A DNA stretch of 29,532 nt, from IMG/VR virus record IMGVR_UViG_3300045912_000402, positions 1 to 29,532 of that record. One strand, 5' to 3'. The notes under the pieces are model-generated. The model was not told the DNA's origin. It searched no databases and saw nothing but the letters and a program-made list of their open reading frames with translations. The translations under genes and the position numbers were made by a program. How positions within the stretch are numbered: the stretch's first letter is position 1; every line of letters starts with the position of its first letter. Shown here in pieces: positions 400-21,626 of the stretch. This stretch comes from a virus.

Positions 400-1545
400 A
401 TGGGACTTCTCAACGGCAGCATCGGCATGCGGCGCTACGCGATCGCAGACGGGGACCCCGAGGAGATCGGGTACAAGACGCAGGAGATCCAGGCGCACGC
501 CTTCCGGGGCTTCGCCGAGGAAGACGAGCGGGAGATGGTGGCCGGATGGCTCCCCCTGACGGACGAGGGGGACTTCGCCGACCGCAACGGCTGGCTGGTG
601 GATGGGCGCTTCGGTTTCCTGCGCCTGCGCACGGACACGCGCACGGTGCCGGCCTACCTGCTCCGGGAGGTGTCCCGCGAGATGGAGCGCGAGTGGAAGT
701 CCCGCGCGGGCCGGGAGGACCTGACCCGCGCTGAGCGAAACGAGATTCAGGTCATCGCCTACGGGCGGCTCCTGGCCCGGGCCCTGCCCCGGACGCGCCT
801 CACGGACGTGATGGTGGACCTGGAATCGGACGCGGTGGCGTTCCTGAACACGGGGGACGCGGCCAACGACGTCTTTCGGGCGCTCTTCGAGAAGACCTTC
901 GGCGTGAAACTGCGGCACCTCTCGCCCGGGGCCGCCGCGCTCGCGTGCTTCCCCTGGGAGGCTCACGGGGCGCGCTGGAACAAGCTCTTCGGCGGGGGAG
1001 AGCCCGCGGCGGTGCTGCGATACCTGCCGGAGCGAGGGTGGGCGCCGGACTTCCTGACCTGGCTGTGGTTCCGCACGGAGAGCGAGAACGGCGAGCTCGA
1101 GCCGCAGGTCGCAGGGAAGGTGGTGTTGTGGGTGGAAGACCGGCTGCGGCTGGTGGGAATGGACGGGGAGAGCCACGACGTGACGCTCAAGACCGGCGAC
1201 GTGGGGAAGTCTGCGGAGGCTGCCTCGGCGTTGGGCGGCAAGAAACAGACGGCGGAAGCCCGTTTCGGGATGATCCGGGAGGACCGGGAGTACCGCTTCC
1301 TCGTGAAGGCGGAGACCTTCGACCTGTGCGGGCTCAAGGCGCCCAAGGCATCGGTGGAAGGCGACGATGCCGACGCCTGGAAGGCGGCCGCCTTGGTTCG
1401 CGCCAACGGTCTGGCCGAGGTGGCGCAGGTCCTGGACTGCCTCTACGCCGAGTACCTGGAACTGCGGCTCTCGGGCGCCTGGGAGCGCGCGACGCACCCG
1501 GAGATGCAGCGCTGGGCCGAAGCCAAGGCCCAGGTCCAGGGCTGA
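400..1545 (+). CDS. RdgC-like recombination-associated DNA-binding protein
   Basis: This 381-residue protein resembles the RdgC family, whose bacterial members form ring-shaped DNA-binding dimers that modulate RecA-dependent recombination. The resemblance lies in the N-terminal half. There is an early segment in which the protein reads out its own residues against a target (WLPLTDEGDF, then a GRFGFLRLRTDTR strand). A basic helix (REVSREMEREWKSRAGRE) follows, and then the LPRTRLTDVMVDLESD segment that aligns in spirit with the RdgC centre. Bacterial RdgC is about 300 residues, so this one is longer at its C-terminus. The start is set by an aggagg SD six bases upstream. It directly precedes a VRR-NUC nuclease gene, which fits a DNA repair or recombination pair. 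The family call comes from recognition without an alignment. Confidence 0.7.
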   Translation: MGLLNGSIGMRRYAIADGDPEEIGYKTQEIQAHAFRGFAEEDEREMVAGWLPLTDEGDFADRNGWLVDGRFGFLRLRTDTRTVPAYLLREVSREMEREWKSRAGREDLTRAERNEIQVIAYGRLLARALPRTRLTDVMVDLESDAVAFLNTGDAANDVFRALFEKTFGVKLRHLSPGAAALACFPWEAHGARWNKLFGGGEPAAVLRYLPERGWAPDFLTWLWFRTESENGELEPQVAGKVVLWVEDRLRLVGMDGESHDVTLKTGDVGKSAEAASALGGKKQTAEARFGMIREDREYRFLVKAETFDLCGLKAPKASVEGDDADAWKAAALVRANGLAEVAQVLDCLYAEYLELRLSGAWERATHPEMQRWAEAKAQVQG

Positions 1546-1548
1546 GCG

Positions 1549-1944
1549 ATGCCGCGCCCCTGCACCGGACCACGCCGCCGCACCCGGCCCGTGCACCGCG
1601 AGGACGCGGAGCAGGCGAGCGTGGTCCGGTGGGCCAACCTCAACGCCGGCCGCGTGCCGGCGCTTTCCCTACTGTTTCACGTGCCCAATGGAGGAGGGCG
1701 AAACCCCAGAGAAGCCGCGAGACTCAAGGGGTTGGGGGTGCGCCGGGGGGTGCCGGACCTTTGGCTCCCCGTGGCCCGCGGCGGCCACCATGGCCTCGTG
1801 ATCGAACTCAAGGCCCCCGGGGGAACGACCACGGCAGAGCAGCGCCAATGGATCGACCGACTGCGGGCGCAGGGCTACCGCGCCGAGGTCTGCCACGGAT
1901 GGCATGCGGCGACCACTCTCCTGGCGGAGTACCTGGGAGTATGA
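1549..1944 (+). CDS. VRR-NUC domain nuclease
   Basis: This 131-residue protein has the signature of the VRR-NUC branch of the PD-(D/E)XK nucleases, common as stand-alone phage enzymes thought to act as structure-specific DNA endonucleases. Visible motifs in order are an N-terminal acidic helix (E18, D19, E21), HVPNGG near residues 44-49, GVPDLWLP with the catalytic Asp70, and VIELKAP with Glu86 and Lys88. TTAEQRQW follows around 94-101, then the closing GY-V-HGWHAA strand-helix. All expected active-site positions are present, and the size fits phage members. It begins three bases after the RdgC-like gene and overlaps the next gene by ATGA, so the three are probably translated as one unit. Confidence 0.9.
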   Translation: MPRPCTGPRRRTRPVHREDAEQASVVRWANLNAGRVPALSLLFHVPNGGGRNPREAARLKGLGVRRGVPDLWLPVARGGHHGLVIELKAPGGTTTAEQRQWIDRLRAQGYRAEVCHGWHAATTLLAEYLGV

Positions 1945-2265: not shown

Positions 2266-2876
2266 AACAGGCACAGACGCCCGCCCCTCACGAAAGGGTC
2301 AGCCGACTGTGTGGTGCCCGCGCGAAGAGCCGCCCGGGGGGTACGTGCCGCAAGCCGGCGGGATGGGGGACCGACCACGTCGGGGAGGGGCGGTGCAGGA
2401 TTCACGGCGGGGTCTCCGGCACGCTCAAGCACGGCCGCTACAGCAAGGTGAAGCACACGGCGTTGCGGGAGTTGATCGAACGCCACGAGCAGGACCCGGA
2501 GCCGCTCAACATCCACCCCGAGCTCGCCGCCGCGCGGGCGCTTTTCGAGAGCTACATCGACCGGTATCAGGCGTGGGCGGACGCCCTGCTGGCCTGGCAC
2601 GAGAGCTGGAAGCTGGGGGAGGACAAGGGCAAGCCCACGCAGCTTCCCGACATCGCCGATGCCTACCGGATTCTGTCGGAGGTGACCAAGATCGCAGAGC
2701 GCATCGAGAAGGTGCGCTCTGCCAATGCCATCAGCCGGCCGGAGCTCCTGCGCGTGCTCTCGGAGATGAGCCGCACCGTGGACCGGCGCATCGACGAGAG
2801 CACGTTGCCAGACGACGAAAAGAAGGTGCTGCGGGGAAAGATCAGCGGTGACTGGGCTGCAATCCGTCTGGCGTGA
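2262..2876 (+). CDS. HGG-motif protein, probable terminase small subunit
   Basis: The ATG at 2262 overlaps the preceding stop (ATGA) and is preferred over an upstream in-frame ATG at 2193 that lies inside the membrane-peptide gene. The 204-residue product begins with a cysteine/histidine motif (C17, C29, C45, H48, closing in CRIHGG). This motif is typical of phage HGG-motif proteins encoded just before the large terminase. The rest is helical and charged, as expected for oligomeric small terminases that bind the packaging site and hand DNA to the motor. The position overlapping the large terminase start supports the role. The assignment rests on context plus the motif rather than on a classic small-terminase fold. 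Confidence 0.7.
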   Translation: MKQAQTPAPHERVSRLCGARAKSRPGGTCRKPAGWGTDHVGEGRCRIHGGVSGTLKHGRYSKVKHTALRELIERHEQDPEPLNIHPELAAARALFESYIDRYQAWADALLAWHESWKLGEDKGKPTQLPDIADAYRILSEVTKIAERIEKVRSANAISRPELLRVLSEMSRTVDRRIDESTLPDDEKKVLRGKISGDWAAIRLA

Positions 2877-4509
2877 CCATCCGCTCTTCGGCGGGCTCGG
2901 CAAGCAGGCCATGCTGGCAGAGGGTCTGCGGCTGGCCTGTTGCGAGCTCGATCAGGAGCACGGCGAGCCGCTGCCCCTGCGGGACTTCGTTCCCCGGGTG
3001 TTCGAGACGGTGGACCCCGGCTCCCGGTACCTGCCCAACTGGCACGTGGACCTCATGGCGGAGTACTTGGAGGCCGCTGCGGCTGGGGACCTCCGGCGGC
3101 TCGTCATCAACGTGCCGCCGCGCTACCTCAAGAGCATCACGGTCAGTGTTGCCTGGCCGGCGTGGCTCCTCGGTCGGGACCCCTCGGCCCAGATCATGGC
3201 GGCGAGCTACTCGGCGGACCTGGCGTTGCAGCACTCGGTGGATTGCCGGCTCGTGGTGACATCGGACTGGTACCGGCACAGGTTCCCCCGGGTGCTCCTG
3301 GCCCGGGACCAAAACGAGAAGAGCCGCTTCCAGACCACGGCCCGGGGGCACCGGATCGCCACGAGCGTCGGGGGGTCGGCCACGGGCAGCGGGGGAAACG
3401 TCCTCATCGTGGACGACCCGCTCAACCCCAAGCAGGCAGCGAGCGACGCCCAGCGGGAGCACGCGAACACGTGGTTCGACCAGACGTTCTCGACCCGGCT
3501 GAACGACAAGAAGTCCGGCGTGATCGTGGTGGTGATGCAGCGGCTGCACGAGCGGGACCTGACCGGGCACCTCTTGGAACAAGGGGGTTGGGAGCACCTG
3601 AAGTTGCCGGGGGTGGCGCGGGAGCGGGCAATCATCTGTTTTCGGGAGCCGCTCCCCCCGGAGCGCAGCGCGGGGTTGATCGCCGCCGCAGAGGACGCAG
3701 TGCCGGAGCCGTTGCCTCCCCACGTCCAGGAGGCGGACACGGCGCACGTCTACGTCCGCGAGGAGGGGGACATCCTCCACCCGGACCGGGAAGGCCCCGA
3801 AGAGATCGCCGACGCCAAGCGCCGCCTCGGCTCCTACGGCTACGCCGGACAGTACGACCAGGACCCCTCGCCGGCCGAAGGCGGGATCATCAAGCGCTGG
3901 TGGTGGCGGTGGTGGCAACCCAGAGGCGCGAAGCTGCCACCGGTGCGCGTGCGCAAGGCCGACGGCACGTGGCAGGAGTGGGAGCCGGTGGAGTTGCCCG
4001 CGGATCTCGTGGGGCACCTCCAGAGCTGGGACATGGCCTTCAAGGACACCAAAGACAGCGCCTACGTGGTGGGGCAGGTGTGGGCCAAGAAGGGCGCGGA
4101 CCGCTTCTTCCTGGACCAAGACCGGGAAAAGCGCGACTTCCCCAGGACCCTGGAGGCGGTGGAGGCTCTGTCGCGCAAGTGGGGCCAGACCAAGCTCAAG
4201 CTCGTGGAGGACAAGGCCAACGGCCCGGCGGTGATCGCGACCCTCAAGCACAAGATCGCCGGCCTGGTCGCCGAGCCGGTGCACGGGGACAAGCAGGGCC
4301 GGCTCATCGCCGCGAGCCCCGCGGTGGAGGCGGGCAACGTGTACCTGCCCCACCCTCACGTGGCGCCGTGGATTTGGGCCTTCGTGGACGAGATCGCCGC
4401 GGCCCCCACCGGCAAATATATGGACCAGGCCGACGCCTTCAGCCAGGCGATGTCCCGGCTCGATCGGGGCACGGCGCCGCCGCAAATGCAAAAGCGGCTC
4501 TACCGATAG
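2848..4509 (+). CDS. Terminase large subunit (packaging ATPase and nuclease)
   Basis: This 553-residue protein is the DNA-packaging motor that pumps DNA into the prohead through the portal and cuts it. The N-terminal ATPase shows a deviant Walker A (PPRYLKS, residues 90-96), a hydrophobic strand with Walker B (VLIVDD, 185-190) and a coupling-motif region around VVVMQRLHERD (227-237). The C-terminal RNase H-like nuclease shows the expected acidic residues in SWDMAFK (Asp395), VEDKANG (Glu454, Asp455) and DQAD (Asp526, Asp529). The GTG start at 2848 is preceded by ggggaaag about seven bases upstream and overlaps the small-subunit gene by 29 bases. The length is typical and all key residues are present. 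Confidence 0.97.
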   Translation: MTGLQSVWRDHPLFGGLGKQAMLAEGLRLACCELDQEHGEPLPLRDFVPRVFETVDPGSRYLPNWHVDLMAEYLEAAAAGDLRRLVINVPPRYLKSITVSVAWPAWLLGRDPSAQIMAASYSADLALQHSVDCRLVVTSDWYRHRFPRVLLARDQNEKSRFQTTARGHRIATSVGGSATGSGGNVLIVDDPLNPKQAASDAQREHANTWFDQTFSTRLNDKKSGVIVVVMQRLHERDLTGHLLEQGGWEHLKLPGVARERAIICFREPLPPERSAGLIAAAEDAVPEPLPPHVQEADTAHVYVREEGDILHPDREGPEEIADAKRRLGSYGYAGQYDQDPSPAEGGIIKRWWWRWWQPRGAKLPPVRVRKADGTWQEWEPVELPADLVGHLQSWDMAFKDTKDSAYVVGQVWAKKGADRFFLDQDREKRDFPRTLEAVEALSRKWGQTKLKLVEDKANGPAVIATLKHKIAGLVAEPVHGDKQGRLIAASPAVEAGNVYLPHPHVAPWIWAFVDEIAAAPTGKYMDQADAFSQAMSRLDRGTAPPQMQKRLYR

Positions 4510-6770: not shown

Positions 6771-7208
6771 ATGCGCGTGGTGGCGAACCCGAACAACTGG
6801 AGCTGCCTGGCCGCCTGTGCGGCGACGATCGCCGGCAGCTCCGTGGCCGCCTTCGCAACACACGCGGGGCACGACGGCAGCGCGTGCGACGGCTCCTCCG
6901 GCCACCCGGACGGGCGGCGAAGCTTCGCCCTGGCAGAGGCGCGCCGCTTCCTGCGACAACACGGCTGGCGCCTGGACTACCTGGGGGGCGGGCCGGGAGT
7001 TGCCAAGCACCTCACGAGCTGTCGGGTGGGGCTGGTGTCGCTCCTGCCGGCCACCGGTCCGGCCTATCCGCATTGGGCCGTGTGGGACGGCACGGACCGC
7101 GTGCTCCTGGAGGTGGGGCCCTGCCGGCCGGTGGGACCCCGGCCCCTGTCCGAAGTGGTCTCCCGCATCGCCGAGGCATGGGAGGTGAGCCGGCGTGGCG
7201 TCGTCTGA
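6771..7208 (+). CDS. C39/papain-like cysteine-protease-fold protein
   Basis: This 145-residue protein starts one base after the preceding stop. It has the opening NPNNWSCLAAC, with candidate nucleophile Cys12 at the head of a helix, and the later segment PHWAVWDG, with candidate His101 and Asp106. That is the order and spacing expected in a compact papain-like or C39-like peptidase fold. A GHDGS element near residues 33-37 is shared with a recurring phage protein family I recognise by its NPNNWSC opening. Whether it cleaves anything is unknown. Possible roles include head-protein processing or a transglutaminase/amidase-like activity. Its stop overlaps the MuF gene start by 14 bases, so the two are probably made together. 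Confidence 0.6.
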   Translation: MRVVANPNNWSCLAACAATIAGSSVAAFATHAGHDGSACDGSSGHPDGRRSFALAEARRFLRQHGWRLDYLGGGPGVAKHLTSCRVGLVSLLPATGPAYPHWAVWDGTDRVLLEVGPCRPVGPRPLSEVVSRIAEAWEVSRRGVV

Positions 7209-9999
7209 CCTCTGGGCCGGAGCACATATCTCGGAAGACCTGCGCCGGCACCTGGCCGGGGCCATCCTGCGCAACCAGTCGCTCATCGAAGCCCTCGCCG
7301 GCAGGCTCGCCCGGGGCCTGAAGAGCGAGCTCTCCGGGGCGACCTCGGTGACGCAGGAGGCGGAGCAGCGCATTCGGGCTGCACTGGACGCCCTGACCAG
7401 TACCAACGCCGACGACCTGCTGCAAGGGCTCGCCGAGGTGGCCCGAGAGGCCCAAGACCGGGTGCTCGTGGGCCTACTCGACCGCATGGGGCTGTCGCGC
7501 ACGGTGGAGGCGGGCATTCAGCTCCAGAGGCCCAACGAGCTCGCGGCGCGGCTCTTCACGGAGCAGCGCACGGTGGGGCTGCTCTCGGGCAAGCCGGCAC
7601 AGTTCAGCCTGTCGCAGCATCTTCACGACTTCAACCGCATGAGCAAGGAGGCGTTCACCGGGGAGCTGCGTCGGGTGATCCACGACGGCACCTCGGCGGT
7701 GAAGGCGGCCACGCAGCTCCTGGCCCACGACGCCATCACGCCCGTCTCGAACCGCTACGTCGAGGAGATCCGCCAGCGGATGCGGCTGCTCTCGGGCAAC
7801 CTCTCCCCCGAGACGCGCCAGGAGCTGCGGGAGCTCCTGGGGGAGTACCGCAAGTACGCCAAGGGGCTCACTCGGGCCGGAGAAGCGGGCTTTCAGCACC
7901 TGGGAATGCGCGCCGACACCATGCACCTGATCGAGCGGCTGGAGAAGGCGACCACGGTGGAGGCCGTGGAAGCGGCCGTGGACCGGTGGATGGTACAAAA
8001 GCAGGTCTACCACGCGAAGGTGGTGGCCCGTACCGAGCTCAACCGCGGCTACACGGAGGCGATGCGGGAGACGGCCCGGAAGAACCCGGCCGTGGTGGGC
8101 TGGGAGGTGAAGCTCTCGGGGTCGCACCCACGGCCCGACATCTGCGACGACCTAGCCGGGAAGTACTACTTCGACGGCCGGGAGGGGGGCAAGCAGGGCA
8201 GTCCCGACATGGCGTTGCCCCCCTGGCATCCATCGTGCCTGTGCAACTCGAGGCCGATCCTCGACACGGGATACTTCCGCAAGCGGGCCGAAGAGCTGCG
8301 GGCGGCTCGGGCGGAGCAGGGATCTTCCCCGGCGGCGGCAGCCGCGACAGGCCAGGGCGCCGCGCCGCCGGCCCTCGATGCCCACACCAAGGAGCGGATC
8401 GCCGCCAAGGTGACCAAGGGAGACCTGACGCGGCACCTGGCCGAGAAGACGGGCCTGCCCCGGGAGCGCTTCAAGAATCTGCCCAAGGCGCGCCTGTCCG
8501 AGCTTCTGGGAATGGAGGCGGAAGAGGTGAAGGGGGCGCTGGGGCTCCCCACGAACCCCGACTCCTGGAAGCAGGTCGGCAGCCGGCTCGGCTCGAACGA
8601 GGGCGGGACCTTCGAAGCCCCGGGCGGCAAGCGCTGGTACGTGAAGTTCTACGGCGATCCCGACCAGGCGCGGGGCGAGGTGGTCGCCGCTCGGGTGTAC
8701 CGCGAGCTGGGGGTGGAGACCCTGGAGCCGCAGCTCGTCACCATGCGCGGGCGCACCGGGGTGGCCACGGCCTGGCGCGAGGGCTTGCAGCGGCTCACTG
8801 CCGAACAGCTCCTGGAGCACAGGGAGGACCTGGCGAAGATTTACCAGGCATCGGTCGTGACGAAGAACTGGGACGTGGTGGGCCTGGACCTGGACAACAT
8901 CGTGCTCTCGCCCTCGGGGCGGCTCGCGGTGGTCGATACCGGCGGAGCCTTCCGGTTCCGGGCACAGGGTTTGGCAAAGACCTTCGGCCCCGACATCGAC
9001 GAGGTGCGCACGCTTCGCGACGCGGCGGTCAACCGGGAGGGCGGCCGGGTGTTCGGCGAGCTCTTCCGCCGCGACGTGTGGCTCGAGGCTCAGGGTGCCC
9101 AGCCGGTGCTCGGGCTCAAGAAGTCGGGCGTGGAGGCGATGTTCCGGGAGGCCGGCTTCGGGGAAGGCGACGTCAAGGAGCTGACCGGTTCCCTCTGGGC
9201 CCGCCGGCAAGCCCTCATCGACCGCTATGACCTCCAGGGAAAGCTCACGTACCCGGGCTTCGGGAAGCACCTGGAGGAGTTCAAGAAGTGGGAGCGCGGC
9301 ATCTTCGAGACGGCGCAGGAAGCCACGAACACGACCCCGATACTTGTGAACCGGTTCGAGTCGTACGTGGCCCAGAGGTTTGGTCCGGAAGGCCAGACGG
9401 CGCTCAAGAGGTGGTTCAACGAATGGAGCGGCTCGTCTCGGACAACGCCCGCGGCCGGTCTGGTGAAGGACTGGACGCACGAACGGATGGGGGTGCGGCC
9501 GGGGTACCACAACGGAGAGGTGGGGGCAGGAGCGCGGCGGGTCGCGAGCGAACACGCATCGCGAGTGGAACGGGCTTCGCGGTTGAGCAAGACCAAGCTC
9601 TTCGAGCTCCTGGATGCGGAATACGAGTTCCATCAGTACTACCTGCGGCGGGTGCACGGCTGGGACGAGTTCGAAGTCGTTCGGGAGATGGACTCAAGGG
9701 AGCTTCGCGCTACCGTGTCCAGAGGGTGGTGGGAGGCCGGTAGCGCAACGTGCACGGCGCACCCGCGGGGCGTGTTCGTGAACACGGAGGCGATCTCCGC
9801 AAGGGTGCGCGTCGAGGACATCTTGAAGACGTGGCGGCAGGGTCCACGGTACATGCCGTTCTATGACACGACCGAATACCATGGAACCTGGCAGTTGCCG
9901 GATGCAGGACACGCAAACGGTAGAAGGGAACACGAGTACATTGCGATCGGGCGGAAGCGGCCTGCAACGGTCATCAAACGAAACGGCCGCTACCTCTGA
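7195..9999 (+). CDS. MuF-type minor head protein fused to kinase-like and ADP-ribosyltransferase-like C-terminal domains
   Basis: This 934-residue protein starts at a GTG with the strong SD gggaggtga upstream. Residues 1-355 are a MuF/SPP1-gp7-type head protein: helical first, then the signature VARTELNRGY (277-286), HPRPDICDDLAG (311-322) and LPPWHPSCLCNS (341-352). A low-complexity Ala/Gly/Pro linker (375-395) follows. Residues about 460-625 look like a compact kinase fold: a GSNEGG loop, strand RWYVKFY with Lys484, helix Glu495, NWDVVGLDLDN with Asp560 and Asn568, and VVDTGG with Asp581. Residues about 715-934 fit an ADP-ribosyltransferase layout: a W-GSS-like start, strand EVVR with Arg830, a GSATCT segment (849-854), VRVEDIL (871-877) and a terminal E912-x-E914 pair. 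Typical MuF proteins lack such extensions. The whole resembles the phage MuF polymorphic toxins. Head assignment is firm; the two extra domains are inferred from motifs. Confidence 0.85.
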   Translation: MASSDLWAGAHISEDLRRHLAGAILRNQSLIEALAGRLARGLKSELSGATSVTQEAEQRIRAALDALTSTNADDLLQGLAEVAREAQDRVLVGLLDRMGLSRTVEAGIQLQRPNELAARLFTEQRTVGLLSGKPAQFSLSQHLHDFNRMSKEAFTGELRRVIHDGTSAVKAATQLLAHDAITPVSNRYVEEIRQRMRLLSGNLSPETRQELRELLGEYRKYAKGLTRAGEAGFQHLGMRADTMHLIERLEKATTVEAVEAAVDRWMVQKQVYHAKVVARTELNRGYTEAMRETARKNPAVVGWEVKLSGSHPRPDICDDLAGKYYFDGREGGKQGSPDMALPPWHPSCLCNSRPILDTGYFRKRAEELRAARAEQGSSPAAAAATGQGAAPPALDAHTKERIAAKVTKGDLTRHLAEKTGLPRERFKNLPKARLSELLGMEAEEVKGALGLPTNPDSWKQVGSRLGSNEGGTFEAPGGKRWYVKFYGDPDQARGEVVAARVYRELGVETLEPQLVTMRGRTGVATAWREGLQRLTAEQLLEHREDLAKIYQASVVTKNWDVVGLDLDNIVLSPSGRLAVVDTGGAFRFRAQGLAKTFGPDIDEVRTLRDAAVNREGGRVFGELFRRDVWLEAQGAQPVLGLKKSGVEAMFREAGFGEGDVKELTGSLWARRQALIDRYDLQGKLTYPGFGKHLEEFKKWERGIFETAQEATNTTPILVNRFESYVAQRFGPEGQTALKRWFNEWSGSSRTTPAAGLVKDWTHERMGVRPGYHNGEVGAGARRVASEHASRVERASRLSKTKLFELLDAEYEFHQYYLRRVHGWDEFEVVREMDSRELRATVSRGWWEAGSATCTAHPRGVFVNTEAISARVRVEDILKTWRQGPRYMPFYDTTEYHGTWQLPDAGHANGRREHEYIAIGRKRPATVIKRNGRYL

Positions 10000-12271: not shown

Positions 12272-13264
12272 ATGGCCATCGGTACCGCAGGCGACTTCAA
12301 GATTTACCCGGAGCAGTTCTTCGGGGGCATGAGCGAGGTGATCGAGCAGGAGGCCGAGGTGTTCAACGCGGCCTCCGGCGGGTCGCTCGTGCTCGCCCCC
12401 GCGCGCCTGAAGGGCGACTACGAGAAGGAGTCGTTCCTCAAGGCCATCACGAACCTGGTGTCGCGCCGGGTGACCACCGGCAGCGCCGCGTACGCGGACG
12501 CAGGCGACCTGCCCATGACCCAGGGCGAGATCGTTGGGGTGAAGGTCAACCGAAAGATCGGCCCCGTGGCCAACACCCTGGACGCGTGGCGCAAGATCGG
12601 CGCCAACCCCCAGACCATGAGCTTTCAGCTCGGCAAGCAGATCGGCAAGGCCGTGGCCCTGGACTACGTGAACACGTCCATCGCGGCCGTGACCGCGGCG
12701 CTCAAGGGTGTGGCCGCGCTCAACTTCGACGCCACCGGGGCTCCCACCAAGACCCTGACCCACAGCCACATGGTGTCGGGTATGGCGAAGATGGGCGACG
12801 CCGCGAGCTCCATCGTCGCTTGGGCCATGCACTCCAAGCCCTACTACGACCTCATGGGGCAGGCCATCGCCGACAAGATCTTCGAGATCGCCGGAGCGAC
12901 CATCTACGCCGGCACGGTGGCCACCTTCGGCAAGCCCGTGGTGGTGACCGACGCCCCGGCGCTGTGGGACCTCAACGGCTCGGCCACGGACACGTACAAC
13001 GTGCTCGGGCTCGTTCCCGCGGCGGCCGTGGTGAAGCAGAGCGAGGATCAGGAAGTGGTCTCCCAGCTCGTGACGGGCAAGGAGAACCTCGTCATGCGGG
13101 TGCAGGGCGAGTACGCCTTCAACGTCAACGTCAAGGGCTTCACCTGGGACGTGACCAACGGCGGCGCCAACCCCACGGACGGGGCGATCGCCACGAGCTC
13201 CAACTGGGACAAGGCGGCGACCGCGGACAAGAGCCTGGCCGGGGTCTGCATCAAGGTCCAGTAG
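12272..13264 (+). CDS. Major capsid protein
   Basis: This 330-residue protein is the likely coat subunit of the icosahedral head, presumably of HK97 fold. It opens with a helical N-arm (YPEQFFGGMSEVIEQEAEVF). A long central region alternates strands and Ala-rich helices (IGKAVALDYVNTSIAAVTAALKG is typical of a spine helix). The C-terminal half is beta-rich with conserved-looking aromatic positions (YAFNVNVKGFTWDVTNGG). There is no cleavable delta domain, because the separate scaffold does that job. Codon use is extremely G/C-biased, as for a highly expressed gene. It is followed by a GC-rich hairpin. Confidence 0.88.
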   Translation: MAIGTAGDFKIYPEQFFGGMSEVIEQEAEVFNAASGGSLVLAPARLKGDYEKESFLKAITNLVSRRVTTGSAAYADAGDLPMTQGEIVGVKVNRKIGPVANTLDAWRKIGANPQTMSFQLGKQIGKAVALDYVNTSIAAVTAALKGVAALNFDATGAPTKTLTHSHMVSGMAKMGDAASSIVAWAMHSKPYYDLMGQAIADKIFEIAGATIYAGTVATFGKPVVVTDAPALWDLNGSATDTYNVLGLVPAAAVVKQSEDQEVVSQLVTGKENLVMRVQGEYAFNVNVKGFTWDVTNGGANPTDGAIATSSNWDKAATADKSLAGVCIKVQ

Positions 13265-13330: not shown

Positions 13331-14284
13331 ATGCCCCCGACGTTGCTCGTGTACGACCACCAGGGCCGGCCGGAGTTCTCGGCGCTGGCCCTGGCCTTTG
13401 CCCGGGGCGCCGAACGACGCGGCGCGACGGTGCAGTTTCGCAACCCCAGCGTGTACCAGAGCCGCGGCGGGTACGAGCCGGCCGCGGCGGTGCTCGTACA
13501 CGGGATCAACGGTCCCTGTGGGACGATCGTGCGCGACCACCTGGCGGCCGGCGGCTGCCCGATCGTGCTCGAGATGGGGTACGTGCGCCGGGGCGACGGC
13601 CTCGACGCCTACTGGTCTTTGGGCATCGGGGGCCTCAACGCCCACGCCGACTTCCGAAACGGCCGGATGCCGGGGGACCGCTGGGAGGCGCTGGGGGTGC
13701 CGCTCGCACGGTGGCGGGACCCGGGGACCGGCACGATCGTGCTCGTGGCCGGGCAGGTGCCGGGGGACGCCAACGTGGCGGGTCTCGACACCCGGCGCTG
13801 GGCGGAGGCCACGATTTCCGAGCTGCGCGGGCACACGGACCGGCCTATCGTGTACCGGCCCCACCCCAAGGATTTCAACCCCGGCGGCGTCGACGGCGTG
13901 CCGCTCTCGCGACGACCGCTCCACGAGGACCTGGCGCAGGCGTGGGCGCTCGTCACATGGAACTCGAACAGCGCCGTCGAGGCGGTGCTGGCCGGGGTGC
14001 CGGTGTTTTGCCTCTCGCGGGCGATGGCGAGCCCCGTGGGCCTGGACGACCTCTCCCGGATCGAGACGCCCGCGACGCCCGACCGGCAGCAGTGGGCCCA
14101 CGACTTGGCGTACACGCAGTGGCGCCTGGACGAGATGGAGGCGGGCTTGCCCTGGCGCCACCTGATGGAGGGCTGGCCGGACGCGGTGGACGTGCCCGCG
14201 ACGGAGCCGGCCGCCGAGATGCCCCCGGTGGACACTCCCGAGGCGCCCCCGAAGAAGCGCCCTATCCGGAGGGCCCGGACGTGA
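13331..14284 (+). CDS. Glycosyltransferase-fold-like phage protein
   Basis: This 317-residue protein with a strong gaggaggg SD looks like a two-domain Rossmann (GT-B-like) enzyme. The N-terminal domain has a strand/helix pattern and VLVHGINGP. The C-terminal domain has IVYRPHPKDF (173-182) and then LVTWNSNSAVEAVLAGVPVF (residues about 207-226). This is the typical surface-polysaccharide-transferase segment in which a small residue-rich helix follows a strand and contacts the nucleotide sugar. A WAHDLAYTQWRLDEMEAG segment (255-272) is shared with a recurring phage protein. The tail is Pro/Glu/Lys-rich. Substrate unknown: it could decorate capsid or tail proteins or act on host glycans. It is unusual between the coat and head-tail genes. 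Confidence 0.6.
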   Translation: MPPTLLVYDHQGRPEFSALALAFARGAERRGATVQFRNPSVYQSRGGYEPAAAVLVHGINGPCGTIVRDHLAAGGCPIVLEMGYVRRGDGLDAYWSLGIGGLNAHADFRNGRMPGDRWEALGVPLARWRDPGTGTIVLVAGQVPGDANVAGLDTRRWAEATISELRGHTDRPIVYRPHPKDFNPGGVDGVPLSRRPLHEDLAQAWALVTWNSNSAVEAVLAGVPVFCLSRAMASPVGLDDLSRIETPATPDRQQWAHDLAYTQWRLDEMEAGLPWRHLMEGWPDAVDVPATEPAAEMPPVDTPEAPPKKRPIRRART

Positions 14285-14379: not shown

Positions 14380-14865
14380 GTGGCGAGCCGCGCCCTGACG
14401 GTGGAGGCGCCCAACATCGGCCTCCTGACCCGGCTCTTCGAGCTCTTCCCCCAGGTCTTCGCCGACAAGGTCGACATCGCCTTGGACATGGCCGGCGCCA
14501 TGATCGCGGGTGAAGCCAAGGACACGACGGCCTTCACGGACCGGACGGGGAACCTGCGAAACTCCATCCAGCACGAGGTGCTCTCCGGCCAGGCGGTGGT
14601 GGTGTGGCCCGGGATGGAGTACGGCGCGGCGGTGGAGCTGGGGACCGACCCGGCCACGGTCGGCCAGAAGATCTTCCCCAAGACGGCGAAGGTGTTGGCC
14701 TGGCCCGATCCGTCCGGCGCGGGAATGGTCTTCCGGGCGTGGTCCACGGTGGCGGCGCGCAAGGCCCGACCCTTCATGCAGCCGGCGTTCGAGGCCAAGC
14801 GCGCCGAGGTGGAGCAGCTCTTCGCCGACATGATCGACGTCACACTCGCCGAGCTCGGAGCCTGA
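14380..14865 (+). CDS. HK97 gp10-like head-tail joining protein
   Basis: This 161-residue protein has the hallmarks of the HK97-gp10-like family, a component at the neck that connects head and tail in siphoviruses. These are an N-terminal long helix with DRTGNLRNSI (around 54-63), the strand MEYGAAVELGT (78-88) and a C-terminal ARPFMQPAFEAKR segment followed by a helix. The GTG start has a ggaggg SD about ten bases upstream. The length is slightly above the usual 120-150. It forms the first of a run of joining genes ending at the tail tube. Confidence 0.85.
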   Translation: MASRALTVEAPNIGLLTRLFELFPQVFADKVDIALDMAGAMIAGEAKDTTAFTDRTGNLRNSIQHEVLSGQAVVVWPGMEYGAAVELGTDPATVGQKIFPKTAKVLAWPDPSGAGMVFRAWSTVAARKARPFMQPAFEAKRAEVEQLFADMIDVTLAELGA

Positions 14866-15883: not shown

Positions 15884-16603
15884 ATGTCCGTGCAACTGGA
15901 GCGTGGCAAGGGCCACGTGATGCAGATCGTGTCCGGGAAGTACCTGGGCAAGCTGGCCGCGGGCGCCGCAACCGACGCCTGGGTCCAGAAGTTCGGGTAC
16001 GGCCCGAAGAAGAGCTCCGAGACCCACTCCGCCTTCGGATTCGAGGACCCGGTCATCGTGCAGGACACGTACGAGGGCGTGAAGGGCTCCTTCGACGTGC
16101 TCCCCAACGCCTCGAACCTGATCGATGCGGTGCTGACCCAACAGGACCTGGCCAGCGCCGTCGGCTTCGACTTCGCCGAGGCGCAGGCGTTCCACCTGGT
16201 GTCGAACGTGCGTGACAGCCTGGGGAACTTCTTCCGCAGCCACTGGCTGCGCGGCTGCAAGATCGTGGACGCGCCCTTCGACTCGGCCGTGGACGGCAAC
16301 GCCACGCAGCGCTACGACTTCGAGGGCACGGGCGCGACGAAGTTCAAGCACCCCATCGGCGTGCGCCACGTGGCCGGGACCAACACGCCCAACCAGGTGG
16401 TCAACTTCGCCAAGGCCGACGGATCGACCAATGCGACGGCGGTGGCGTACAAGGGCAACTCCGCCCTGACGGTGCTCAAGGACGGGGTGCCGCTGGTGAA
16501 GACCACGGACTACACGGAGACGAGCTCGGCGGTGACGGTGATCGCCGCGGTGCCCACGACCTCGAAGATCACGATCCTCGCCCTGTACGACCCGGCCGCG
16601 TAG
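15884..16603 (+). CDS. Major tail tube protein (probable)
   Basis: This 239-residue protein is beta-rich, with an ATG preceded by ggagaaat. Features such as VQDTYEGVKGSF and many alternating strands, plus position before the chaperone-frameshift pair and tape measure, match a siphovirus tail tube protein. The C-terminal third (TAVAYKGNSALTVLKDGVPL and on) looks like an added Ig-like or surface-decoration domain, found in many tail tubes. No sheath gene follows, which argues against a contractile tail. A strong terminator comes right after, as often seen behind a highly expressed tube gene. Confidence 0.75.
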   Translation: MSVQLERGKGHVMQIVSGKYLGKLAAGAATDAWVQKFGYGPKKSSETHSAFGFEDPVIVQDTYEGVKGSFDVLPNASNLIDAVLTQQDLASAVGFDFAEAQAFHLVSNVRDSLGNFFRSHWLRGCKIVDAPFDSAVDGNATQRYDFEGTGATKFKHPIGVRHVAGTNTPNQVVNFAKADGSTNATAVAYKGNSALTVLKDGVPLVKTTDYTETSSAVTVIAAVPTTSKITILALYDPAA

Positions 16604-16650
16604 GCGCCGGCACAACTCGACCTGTCGCGGGGGTGACAGATTGGCGAAGC

Positions 16651-16690
16651 GGACCCCGCCCGGGAGTGACCCTCCCGAGCGGGGCCTTTT
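16651..16690 (+). terminator. Rho-independent terminator after the tail tube gene
   Basis: ggaccccgcccgggag (16651-16666) pairs with ctcccgagcggggcc (16672-16686), with one bulged A and one mismatch, and is followed by tttt. It separates the tube gene from the chaperone/tape-measure block and lies upstream of the 16710 start. It argues against the earlier in-frame TTG at 16641, which would put the hairpin inside a coding sequence. Confidence 0.8.
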
Positions 16691-16709
16691 GCTGAAGGGG
16701 AACCGGCAG

Positions 16710-16964
16710 ATGCTGCGGCGCTACGCGTGGAACGTGCTCATCGCCCTGGACCAGCTCGGCAACGCCCTGGCCGGCGGGGACCCGGACGAGACGATTTCGA
16801 GCCGGATCGGCAAGGTGTGGCGCCGTCGCCGCCGGCCCGACTGGCGCAGGTACCCGCTGCACCGGGCGCTGGGATGGGTCTTGGAGAAGTGGGATCCGGG
16901 CCACCTGCGCCGGGCGATCGAAGACGACGAAGGCGAAGACGCAGTGCGAAGGAGGAGGGACTGA
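16710..16964 (+). CDS. Conserved small phage protein with GGDPDETISSR motif (84 aa)
   Basis: This 84-residue protein begins at an ATG eight bases after aagggga, and not at the earlier TTG. Its opening (RRYAWNVLIALDQLGNALAG) is followed by GGDPDETISSRIGK, a pattern I recognise in many Gram-negative phage proteins of this size, often annotated as hypothetical. A mildly hydrophobic helix near the N-terminus may touch a membrane. The basic RRRRR patch and acid-rich C-terminus are also typical. No biochemical role is established. It overlaps the next gene as TGATG. Confidence 0.7.
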   Translation: MLRRYAWNVLIALDQLGNALAGGDPDETISSRIGKVWRRRRRPDWRRYPLHRALGWVLEKWDPGHLRRAIEDDEGEDAVRRRRD

Positions 16965-17644
16965 TGGCGAAGAATCAAAAGAAGCTCGCGCAGCAGGAGG
17001 CGGCGCAGGCGGTAGCCCGGATCGTGGACGGCAAGCTCTGGACCGAGTTCGGGGGCCGGGCGCTCGTGCTGCATCGGCTCACGGCCGCGCAGGCGAACCG
17101 GCTCACGCTCGTCTACCACCGGGAAGTGGCCCGGCTGACGGCCGAAGGCGAGCTCTTGAGCGAGGCTCTCCTGGACGGGCTCGTGGCCCAGCGCGCCAAG
17201 GCGGCGGGCATCGACCCGCGGGCCCTGGACCCGGAGGTGCGCCAGGAGGTGCTGCGCCGGGTGTACGCGGTCGTGCCGGAGGCCTTCGGGGCACAGGGCG
17301 AGGCGGCGATCGCGGCCAAGGCAAAGGCCGTGGGAGACGCGTTCACGCCGGAGGAAGTCGTGATACTCGAGGCCATGGCGGCCGTGGACCGGCTCAAGGC
17401 GAGCCTGGAGGGCGCCACGGTGGAGACGGCGGCCCGAGCGCTCCAGCTTCAGCACGAGCTGTGGACCGTGGCCCGGGGAGAGGAGGACGCCCCCTTCTGG
17501 CCCTCGCTGGAAGCGATGCTCGCCGAGCCGGACGATGCCTTCCGCGACCTCCTGGGGCAGTACCGGGCCTGGAAGGCAGGGGCGGGCCCCGATTTTTTCT
17601 CCAGGTTGCCAGGTCGGAGACCTGGCAAAGCCGCTGGCGCCTGA
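16964..17644 (+). CDS. Tail assembly chaperone, zero-frame product (gpG-like)
   Basis: This 226-residue, mostly helical protein is read in the zero frame and ends at TGA 17642-17644. It sits directly before the tape measure gene and contains the frameshift site in its last codons, exactly as lambda gpG-type chaperones do. The helices (ALLDGLVAQRAKAAGID, VVILEAMAAVDRLKASLEG) are typical. These proteins bind and keep the tape measure soluble until the tail tube forms around it. The ATG at 16964 has ggagga a few bases upstream. No membrane or catalytic features are present. Confidence 0.85.
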   Translation: MAKNQKKLAQQEAAQAVARIVDGKLWTEFGGRALVLHRLTAAQANRLTLVYHREVARLTAEGELLSEALLDGLVAQRAKAAGIDPRALDPEVRQEVLRRVYAVVPEAFGAQGEAAIAAKAKAVGDAFTPEEVVILEAMAAVDRLKASLEGATVETAARALQLQHELWTVARGEEDAPFWPSLEAMLAEPDDAFRDLLGQYRAWKAGAGPDFFSRLPGRRPGKAAGA

Positions 17645-17883
17645 GCGCCGACGGAAACCCCTACGGCCGGCCGCCGGCAGAGTGGACGGACGACCAGGTG
17701 GAGCTGGTGACCATGAGCCGGATCCTCGACGGGGTGGCGGCGATTCCGGAGAAGACGCGGGGGCCCCTGGAGAAGATCGAGACGTGGGCGGACGTGCAAA
17801 GGGTGCTCGCCCTGGCCCAGCGCACGCAGGGCGGCCCCCGGCACAAGGGCCACGACTACAGCGAGTACAGCGAGGTGCTGTGA
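16964..17883 (+). CDS. Tail assembly chaperone, -1 frameshift fusion (gpGT-like, about 306 aa)
   Basis: A -1 slip on T TTT TTC (17593-17599) joins the first 212 codons of the chaperone to a second frame read from 17599 to the TGA at 17881-17883. It adds about 94 residues. The added part is LQVARSETWQSRW, then the GRPPAEWTDDQ region and a helical stretch, closing with HDYSEYSEVL. It has no start codon with an SD of its own, so frameshifting is the natural way to make it. In lambda the longer form recruits tail tube protein to the tape measure; the layout here predicts the same role. The ratio of short to long product is set by the frameshift rate. Confidence 0.88.
17593..17628 (+). other. Programmed -1 ribosomal frameshift site with stem-loop
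   Basis: The slippery heptamer tttttc with its leading t (T TTT TTC in the zero frame) spans 17593-17599. After a six-base spacer, ttgccaggtc (17606-17615) pairs perfectly with gacctggcaa (17619-17628) around a gga loop, giving a 10-bp stem. This arrangement is the textbook stimulator of -1 frameshifting. Confidence 0.88.
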
Positions 17884-17903: not shown

Positions 17904-20900
17904 ATGGCGGAACGCAGCGAAGTCGAAATCCTCCTACGGGCCATCGATCAGGTGACGGCGCCCTTCCGCACGGCGGGCCGGGCGACGGGCGACCTGACGA
18001 AGGCGCTGGCGGAGGCCGACGGGCAGGCCCGGCAGGTGGGCCCTGGGGCCGAAGCCGCGGGCCAGGCGTTCCAGCGGATGGGGGGGCACGCGGGGCAGGC
18101 GGCGGCTGCGGTGCAGACGCTGGTATCGGCGCTGGGGGTGCGCGCCGCGGTGCAGGGCATGGTGGGGGCCGTCACGGGGGCGGTGCGCACCTTCTCGGAC
18201 TTCCAGCTCGGCTTGACGGAGGCCGGCGCCGTGGCGGGGGCCACCGCGCAGGAGATCGCGATCCTGCGCGAGCGGGCCTTGAGCCTCGGCGAGTCCACCA
18301 AGTTCAGCGCGAAGGAGGTGACGAGCGCCTTCTACGAGATGTCGTCTGCGGGCCTGAGCGTGACGCAGCAGCTCGCGGGGATCGAGGGCGTTCTTGACTT
18401 CGCCGCCGCGGGCAACATCGCCATCGGGGAGGCGGCCGGGGCCGCCACCGTGGGCCTCAAGGCGTTCCGGCTCGAGGCCACAGAGACGACCCGGGTGGTG
18501 GACGTGTTCACCAAGGCCGTGACGGCGAGCTCGTTCAAGGCAGGGGAGTTTCAGCAGGCGATCGCCTCCGGCGGCGGCGTGGCGGCGCAGGCGGGGCAGA
18601 GCCTGGAGAGCTTCATTGCTGCCGCGGCGCAGCTTCGAAACATCGGCGCGGCGGCGTCCGACGCCGGCACGAGCATCAAGGCGGCCCTGATGCAGGGAGT
18701 CATCAACCCGAGCGTCGAGGCCCAGAAGAAATACGGCTACCTGATCGAGCAGTTCCGCGACGGCACCGGGAAGGTGAAGCAGTGGGCCGACATCGTGGCG
18801 GTGGTGGAGCGGGAGACCGGGAAGATGGGCGATGCCCAGCGGGACGCCGCCATCGCCACGATCTTCGGCGCCGACGGCATCCGAGCCATGACGGCCAGCC
18901 TGGCCGCGGGTTCGGAGAAGGTGCGGCAGTTCACCGAAGACCTCCAGAAGGCGGAGGGCACGGCCAAGTCTATCGCCGGGGTCATGATGCAGCAGCTCGA
19001 CGGCTCCCTGAAGGAGCTCGCCGGCAGCCTGGAGACGTTTCGGATCAAGGTGGGGACCGACCTCGAAGAGCCGGCCCGGGGCGTGCTCGGCGCCATCACG
19101 GAGCTCATCCGGGGCTTCAACGGCCTGGACGACGCCACGCGCCAGTCTGTGCTCATCCTGGGGGGCGGGGTGGGGCTGACGGCAGTTGCCGTGCTGGCCA
19201 CGGCGGCGGTGCTGGGGCTTTCGGCGGCGCTCGGGGGGGTGCTGGCGGGCGCGGGGGCGATCCTGGGCCCCATCGCGGCCGTGGGGGCGGTAGTGACGGT
19301 GCTCGCCGCGGGGCTCTACCGGCTCCAGGCGCAGGCGAAGGAGACGGGGCAGGTCTTCGGCATGACGGTGGACGAGAACGTGGCGGCGGCGCACCGGCTC
19401 AAGGGGGCTGCGGCAGAGGTGGCCGCGAGCCTCAAGGCGATGGGGGAGGCCGGGGAGCAGGGCCGCAAGAAGATCATCGAGACGGACGACGCCGTGCGCA
19501 AGGTGCAGGCACTCCAGAAGGAGTACGAGGGGCTGCGGGGGGAGACCACGCTCACGGCGGAGCAGAAAGAGCGACTGCGGACCGTGGTGGGGGAGCTCAA
19601 CACGTTGATCCCCAGCCTCAACCTCAAGCTGGACGGGGAGAACCGGGCACTCTCCGAGGTGCGCGGGGAGCTGCGGGCGTACATCGAGCTCAAGGGGCAG
19701 GAAATCCGGGCGGAGCGGGAGGCTGTGGCATCGAAGGCCCGGCTCGCCGCAGACGAGCTCGGCATTCTCTACGTGCTGGCCCGCGAGCGGGAGCGCGTGG
19801 CCCGGGAAGCCTTGCAGAAGGCCCAAGAGACCGTGGCCGCCGGCGACCGGGCCATCGCCAAGGGCGGCGACAAGGTGCCGGGGAACTACTTCCAGGCGAA
19901 GGAGGCCGTCGCGGGGCTGACTTCCGAGCTCGGAGCCGCTGGCGCCGAAGCGCAGCGACTTCAGGGGGAGATTGCGCGCACCGGCGAAGAGGTGCGGCGT
20001 CTCCAGAACCTGCCCGAGCCCGAGTTCCTCAAGTGGCTGCGGGGCGAGAAGACGCCAACGCAGAGCCCTACGAAGGCCGTGGATGACGGTCTGGACCACA
20101 CCTTGACGAAGGTGCAGGGGGCGTTCGGGCTCCTGGAGCAGTGGCAGGTGGACACCCTGAAGGCCCTGGACGACGCCAAGGGCAAGGCACTTCGGATGAC
20201 GGGGGACATCCTGGAGGCGCAACGAGGGCTCTTCGACGCCGGGGCCCTGGACCCCGCCGCGTTCATCGGCGTGCTCACGGAGATGATGACCGAAGAGCTC
20301 ACCGTCGCCGACGCCACGAGCGAGCGCTACAAGGCCATCTACGCGGCTCGGCAGAAGGCCATCCAGGACACGATCCGCCTGAACCTGGACCTCGCCGAGA
20401 GCGAGCGCATCAGCCCGGAGGAGGCGGGCCGAAGGAACCAGGCGCTCGTGGCGCTTCTGGAAGCCACGGGGGACCGCCGGGTGCTCCTGGAGAAGGGTGT
20501 GCAGGACGCCATCGGCCAGCTCCAGGACAAGGCCTTCGCGGACTTCGTGAAGCGGGAGCAGCGCCGGGTGGACTCGGGTGCGCTCTCCCAGGCGGGGATG
20601 CTCGAGCTGATCGACGCGGAGATCCGCAAGCGCGAAGCAGCCGGCGACACGGACCGCAAGGTGCTCGACGAGATGCGCGAGGTGCGCCGCCGGTTCGCGG
20701 AGCAGGTGCGCGGGGACCAGGACGCGCAGGTGCGGTGGGAGACCGAGACCCACCAGCGCACCCTGGAGAGCTACCGGGACTACCTGGCCCAGCGCCTGGA
20801 CGACACGCGCGCCGGCACGGAGGAGTACCGGCGCATCTTCAGCGACTGGCAGGCGGCGAGCCGCGAGGTGGACATCGCCACCCCGATTCGGCGCCAGGCG

Positions 20901-21626
20901 GCCGAGGTGGAGCGGCTCCAGACGACCCTGGAGGTCGCCAAGAAGGAGTTCCAGGAGCTCTACCGGGCCGCCTCGCCCTCGGAGCAGAAGGCGGCGGCGG
21001 AGGCGCAGTTTGAGACGATCCGCCGCACGACGGAGGCGACCCGGGCGCACTTCGAGCTCTTGCTCCAGAAGGCGAAGCTCGAGACCGACCCGGAGCGCCG
21101 GGCCGCCCTGGAGCAGGATGCGCTCCGGGCCCGCGGGGCGCTGGTGGACGCCCTGTCGGAGTACAGGCGCTTCGCCGCGGAGGTGGAGGGCCGCGCGGGT
21201 ACGGGGTTCCTTCGGCAGTTCCAGTGGGACGAAGAATCCATCCGCGACCTGCTCCAGACCCTGGACGCCGAGATGCGGGTCAAGGTGACGCTGCCCACGG
21301 GAGAAGTGGTGGAGCGCGCCGAGACGGCCGTGGAGCGGGCCCACCGGCTCATGGAGGAGGCGGGGCAGACGGGCGCGGGCATCACGGACACCCTGCGGCG
21401 CATGGAAGAGAGCAACCGCGCGGACCGGGCTGACGCGGCCACGAAGATGGAGACCGTGGGGCGCCAGATCGCGGACCACGCCTCGGCGGTACAGGAAGCG
21501 GCCCGCCAGACGGCGCGCATGGCCGACCGGGTGCTCCAGACCATCGTGGTCAACATCGGCAAGCTCGAGCTCGGCCGGGAGCTCGAAGACGCCGTGCGGC
21601 GGCAGCTCTCCGCCGTGCTGGCATAG
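17904..21626 (+). CDS. Tail tape measure protein
   Basis: This 1240-residue protein is the largest complete gene in the window and sets tail length. Residues about 85-395 resemble the TP901-type tape measure core, with Ala/Gly-rich helices such as LGLTEAGAVAGATAQEI and the FSAKEVTSAFYEMSSAGLS stretch. About residues 412-470 form a strongly hydrophobic Gly/Ala/Val segment, likely the membrane-insertion part. Long charged coiled coils (about 500-1150) follow, rich in Glu, Arg and Gln. Using about 0.15 nm per residue, a tail near 185 nm would be expected. No peptidase or transglycosylase domain was visible. The gene follows the chaperone pair, with ATG after ggggagcgg. Confidence 0.95.
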   Translation: MAERSEVEILLRAIDQVTAPFRTAGRATGDLTKALAEADGQARQVGPGAEAAGQAFQRMGGHAGQAAAAVQTLVSALGVRAAVQGMVGAVTGAVRTFSDFQLGLTEAGAVAGATAQEIAILRERALSLGESTKFSAKEVTSAFYEMSSAGLSVTQQLAGIEGVLDFAAAGNIAIGEAAGAATVGLKAFRLEATETTRVVDVFTKAVTASSFKAGEFQQAIASGGGVAAQAGQSLESFIAAAAQLRNIGAAASDAGTSIKAALMQGVINPSVEAQKKYGYLIEQFRDGTGKVKQWADIVAVVERETGKMGDAQRDAAIATIFGADGIRAMTASLAAGSEKVRQFTEDLQKAEGTAKSIAGVMMQQLDGSLKELAGSLETFRIKVGTDLEEPARGVLGAITELIRGFNGLDDATRQSVLILGGGVGLTAVAVLATAAVLGLSAALGGVLAGAGAILGPIAAVGAVVTVLAAGLYRLQAQAKETGQVFGMTVDENVAAAHRLKGAAAEVAASLKAMGEAGEQGRKKIIETDDAVRKVQALQKEYEGLRGETTLTAEQKERLRTVVGELNTLIPSLNLKLDGENRALSEVRGELRAYIELKGQEIRAEREAVASKARLAADELGILYVLARERERVAREALQKAQETVAAGDRAIAKGGDKVPGNYFQAKEAVAGLTSELGAAGAEAQRLQGEIARTGEEVRRLQNLPEPEFLKWLRGEKTPTQSPTKAVDDGLDHTLTKVQGAFGLLEQWQVDTLKALDDAKGKALRMTGDILEAQRGLFDAGALDPAAFIGVLTEMMTEELTVADATSERYKAIYAARQKAIQDTIRLNLDLAESERISPEEAGRRNQALVALLEATGDRRVLLEKGVQDAIGQLQDKAFADFVKREQRRVDSGALSQAGMLELIDAEIRKREAAGDTDRKVLDEMREVRRRFAEQVRGDQDAQVRWETETHQRTLESYRDYLAQRLDDTRAGTEEYRRIFSDWQAASREVDIATPIRRQAAEVERLQTTLEVAKKEFQELYRAASPSEQKAAAEAQFETIRRTTEATRAHFELLLQKAKLETDPERRAALEQDALRARGALVDALSEYRRFAAEVEGRAGTGFLRQFQWDEESIRDLLQTLDAEMRVKVTLPTGEVVERAETAVERAHRLMEEAGQTGAGITDTLRRMEESNRADRADAATKMETVGRQIADHASAVQEAARQTARMADRVLQTIVVNIGKLELGRELEDAVRRQLSAVLA

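Follow-up and report, generated by a model that had tools for sequence, protein, structure and literature searches.

The locus examined here raises the question of whether two overlapping reading frames just upstream of a phage tape measure gene are one gene joined by a programmed −1 ribosomal frameshift or something else. The window, by which we mean the whole stretch of DNA analysed, is a tailed-phage record of 29,532 bases with head and tail genes in the usual order. We conclude, with a probability of roughly 0.9, that the gene belongs to the known class of G/GT tail-assembly-chaperone −1 frameshifts. The system itself is well known in tailed phages, and the only mildly distinctive element is the hairpin.

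All elements of the signal lie on the plus strand. The zero-frame gene (16964..17644) starts at ATG16964, encodes 226 aa and, judged by its open reading frame, coding signal and position, is a candidate gpG-like tail assembly chaperone; its stop codon TGA (17642–17644) lies 14 codons past a slippery heptamer, T TTT TTC (17593..17599). The heptamer can be read directly and is in phase, as the codons from ATG16964 run GAT TTT TTC TCC and give X XXY YYZ. It is followed by a 6-nt spacer, tccagg (17600..17605), and a perfect hairpin (17606..17628) in which the arms ttgccaggtc (17606–17615) and gacctggcaa (17619–17628) form 10 Watson–Crick pairs around the 3-nt loop gga. From 17599 the −1 frame reads CTC CAG GTT GCC AGG (LQVAR) and continues as an extension of 94 codons plus TGA (17599..17883; stop codon 17881–17883), which ends 20 bases upstream of the tape measure ATG. 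The sequence-only reading of this locus had described the in-phase heptamer, the 6-nt spacer, the 10-bp stem with its 3-nt loop and the open −1 frame of 94 codons, and each was recovered exactly at its place.

The gene order around the signal is that of a tail module. A terminase gene (2848–4509), a Gp13-like major capsid protein gene (12272–13264; Pfam E 7e-100) and an HK97-gp10-like neck protein gene (14380–14865) precede a gene (15884..16603, plus strand) that is, from its position only, a candidate for the major tail tube protein; its product has no PHROG match, and its CBM_X2 match (E 0.04) is weak and below the cut-off. On the other side lies a clear tail length tape measure gene (17904..21626, plus strand), whose 1240-aa product matches PHROG 1533 (E 7e-68) and Pfam PhageMin_Tail (E 1e-35). 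The frameshift site thus sits between the candidate tail tube gene and the tape measure gene, and this position, together with the architecture, suggests the label "tail chaperone". The small gene directly 5′ of the chaperone gene (16641..16964, plus strand) belongs to PHROG 3342 (E 1e-16), a family of unknown function, and has relatives at 29 loci in viral contigs. None of the 12 records searched contains a match to the tape measure protein of the window, so the PHROG 3342 gene does not point to the tail module.

Several other genes of the window deserve mention in their own right. An RdgC-like gene (400–1545, plus strand; E 1.6e-6) and then a VRR-NUC nuclease gene (1549–1944, plus strand; E 2e-12) lie just upstream of the packaging genes. 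At the usual place of head morphogenesis genes, a 934-aa protein (7195–9999, plus strand) carries a DRAT-like (ADP-ribosyltransferase) match at residues 735–821 (Pfam E 4e-7); this may be a fused enzyme domain that the head carries. A glycosyltransferase-like gene (13331–14284, plus strand; DUF6716, E 1.5e-4, below the cut-off) lies between the major capsid and neck genes; the head module of Tunturiibacter phage Tunturi_4 likewise holds a glycosyltransferase, there after the terminase.

Evidence that both frames have coding character, and for where one gives way to the other, came from codon usage. The score, which was blind to the heptamer motif, had been trained on ten genes elsewhere in the window and was applied to each of the three forward frames. 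Frame 0 scored positive in all 45-nt blocks up to 17593, and frame −1 scored best in all blocks over 17594–17863, with positive values from 17639 on. The best single change point was 17600, the first base 3′ of the heptamer, with neighbouring codons scoring only slightly lower. Over the extension (17602–17880) the −1 frame scored +63.3 versus −74.4 and −56.1 in the other frames, a value reached by none of 3020 off-frame controls, and its GC content at the three codon positions (0.68/0.49/0.93) is close to that of the tape measure gene (0.73/0.47/0.93). The −1 frame might alternatively be a separate gene translated from its own start, such as ATG17713, which is preceded by GGTGGAG and so has a Shine–Dalgarno-like GGAG about 9 nt upstream. 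However, the stretch before this ATG (17602–17712) is already coding in the −1 frame (+15.2 versus −25.5 and −18.4, a level that none of 3398 off-frame controls reached), which is evidence against a separately initiated second gene, and that frame has no ATG, GTG or TTG between positions 17461 and 17698. Two separate genes are therefore highly improbable, and a single frameshifted gene remains the preferred reading.

The combination of heptamer and hairpin is far from what chance would give. Among the 23 in-phase XXXYYYZ heptamers in all window genes, TTTTTTC at 17593 is the only one with a T6 or A6 run. Synonymous shuffles of all window genes yielded about four in-phase XXX(AAA|TTT)N heptamers per window; the expectation falls to 0.0033 once a perfect stem of 9 bp or more is required to follow at a distance of no more than 12 nt. 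The 61 nt from 17600 to 17660 fold at −31.8 kcal/mol (z −4.2), a stability equalled by none of 200 shuffles, and the minimum free energy fold contains a second predicted hairpin (17631..17654, plus strand) across the zero-frame stop; for 17600–17650 the z value was −4.0. The longer stretch 17560–17720 folds no more stably than its shuffles (z −0.5), as expected for GC-rich DNA, although the hairpin with the 3-nt loop is still predicted there, and the relevant feature is therefore the local hairpin. Elsewhere in the window, perfect Watson–Crick stems of at least 10 bp with a loop of 3–9 nt occur only at 2694, 11216 and 26671.

Searches for relatives of the two coding parts gave little. Neither the zero-frame protein nor the −1 extension matches any Pfam, PHROG or NCBIfam model. 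No close relatives of the chaperone, the extension or the N-terminus of the tape measure protein were found in viral contigs, no chaperone relatives in genome contigs and no relatives of the two chaperone parts in a phage collection; a capsid-profile scan of the genome contigs also found nothing. The single-sequence structure prediction for the zero-frame protein was poor (pLDDT 48, pTM 0.30). Members of the G/GT class differ widely in sequence (PMC5009743), and a missing profile match hence does not bar membership.

Neither the exact hairpin sequence nor a second copy of the record was found in viral contigs. Because the window is a single virus contig of metagenomic origin and no second copy was found, an assembly or sequencing error is the most serious rival explanation: the true run would be seven T's, and both frames would form one ordinary gene of 306 codons. 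The frame break does sit on a homopolymer, as such an error would require. Against this, a chance error would leave the perfect 10-bp hairpin at 6 nt as a coincidence (the 0.0033 expected occurrences given above), along with the spacing and the synteny. Moreover, no other in-phase heptamer in this GC-rich window has a T6 run, and the same arrangement occurs in many phages, including a cultured isolate, Tunturi_4, with the identical heptamer. We regard an error as very unlikely.

The wider occurrence of the arrangement was assessed in 80 virus loci fetched by capsid-protein alignment and in phages chosen by tape-measure similarity, by searching the sequence 5′ of each large ORF for a heptamer that is in phase and has a −1 extension ending beside that ORF. 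The scan returned 24 records besides the window: 3 of the phages picked for their tape measure and 21 of the loci selected by capsid protein. Among the latter, L088 was dropped because its match, located 5′ of the capsid gene, is probably noise. The remaining 20 are a count and not a rate, as the scan filters records and does not amount to a census. The counterparts, present in three of the four phages picked by tape-measure similarity and in these 20 contigs, have a canonical heptamer and an extension of 65–153 codons that ends at most about 20 nt from a tape-measure-sized gene. The architecture is thus common to about 20 contigs and to named phages at the same place, the correspondence being one of position, not of homology. 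At seven loci (L089, L094, L096, L103, L104, L108 and L110) the heptamer is TTTTTTC and lies as far from the zero-frame stop as it does in the window. Not all seven are independent: L108 is a near-copy of L110, and L094, L103 and L104 resemble one another. Other common heptamers are GGGAAAC and AAAAAAC.

Pairwise shuffling tests gave no convincing homology between the parts of the window gene and the counterparts (Tunturi_4 extension, p 0.07; L086 extension, p 0.004 among 42 tests). This fits PMC5009743, according to which G-T frameshifting is widely conserved although sequence similarity is low. The sequence-only reading had joined the two frames as a tail chaperone frameshift. That interpretation, very probably right, is now strengthened by the codon-usage switch, the adjacent tape measure gene and the counterparts, although neither coding part matches a family model.

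Slippage of RNA polymerase on the T6 run, instead of ribosomal slippage, would also join the frames, and a homopolymer of six T's could allow it at a low level. Six T's are, however, short for efficient transcriptional slippage; the phase, the 6-nt spacer and the downstream hairpin match ribosomal −1 slippage; and many counterparts have mixed heptamers, such as GGGAAAC, that are not homopolymers. Transcriptional slippage is accordingly the remotest of the alternatives; both it and internal initiation are less likely than a homopolymer error.

The signal, the switch of coding frame and the synteny are features of the sequence itself, and from them we infer how the ribosomal frameshift would work. 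Most ribosomes would read through TTT TTC and terminate 14 codons on, giving the gpG-like protein of 226 aa. Some ribosomes, delayed by the hairpin that begins 6 nt past the heptamer, would slip as both tRNA-Phe move together from U UUU UUC to UUU UUU, and would add 94 codons to yield a minority gpGT-like fusion of 306 aa (..GPDFF-LQVAR..SEVL), whose junction peptide would span ..AGAGPDFFLQVAR. By analogy with lambda, the short form would coat the tape measure protein, and the fusion, like gpGT, would recruit tail tube subunits and link them to it (PMC5009743).

A stimulatory role for the hairpin is plausible, though the counterparts lack a comparable stem: none of those listed has a perfect stem of at least 8 bp at 2–10 nt past the heptamer, the best being 7 bp in L063. 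It is a tentative and rather doubtful idea that the perfect hairpin is a lineage-specific stimulator that gives the short and the fused chaperone an unusual ratio in this phage, while the counterparts manage with the heptamer and without a stem of this kind.

With this locus, an uncultivated phage adds a clean, GC-rich case to a well-known recoding class, which is seen at work across chaperones that lack detectable sequence similarity. Because the class spans such dissimilar chaperones, codon usage and the heptamer alone are enough to annotate a pair of ORFs upstream of a tape measure gene as a single frameshifted gene. The compact hairpin would also be a convenient basis for a reporter construct.

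The closest cultured phage by capsid protein (51%) is Tunturi_4 (PP885687.1, our locus L032), whose counterpart came from a scan separate from that of the capsid loci. Its ORF10 has the identical in-phase TTTTTTC at record position 9335, with a −1 extension of 112 codons (9335–9679). Unlike the window, it has no stable stem after the heptamer (z +1.2) and two annotated ORFs between the heptamer and the tape measure gene, which in the window follows directly; the two chaperones are not detectably homologous. The frameshifted chaperone of Tunturi_4 appears to be unannotated in the deposited record, which shows only the C-terminal part of the extension, as a separate ORF11. The lambda heptamer is G GGA AAG and thus differs from that of the window; no sequence similarity to gpG/gpGT was found, and the strong hairpin is a feature of the window. 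The −1 frameshift heptamer of the P2-type E/E′ genes is T TTT TTG, and Shewanella phage SppYZU01 and Aeromonas phage AeroV_348, both picked by tape measure, have TTTTTTG at the same place. The frameshift efficiency of P2-type E/E′ is 2–3 fold higher than that of lambda (PMC5009743). This pair shares with the window a T6-type heptamer and the gene position; its heptamer ends in G whereas that of the window ends in C and is followed by a perfect hairpin.
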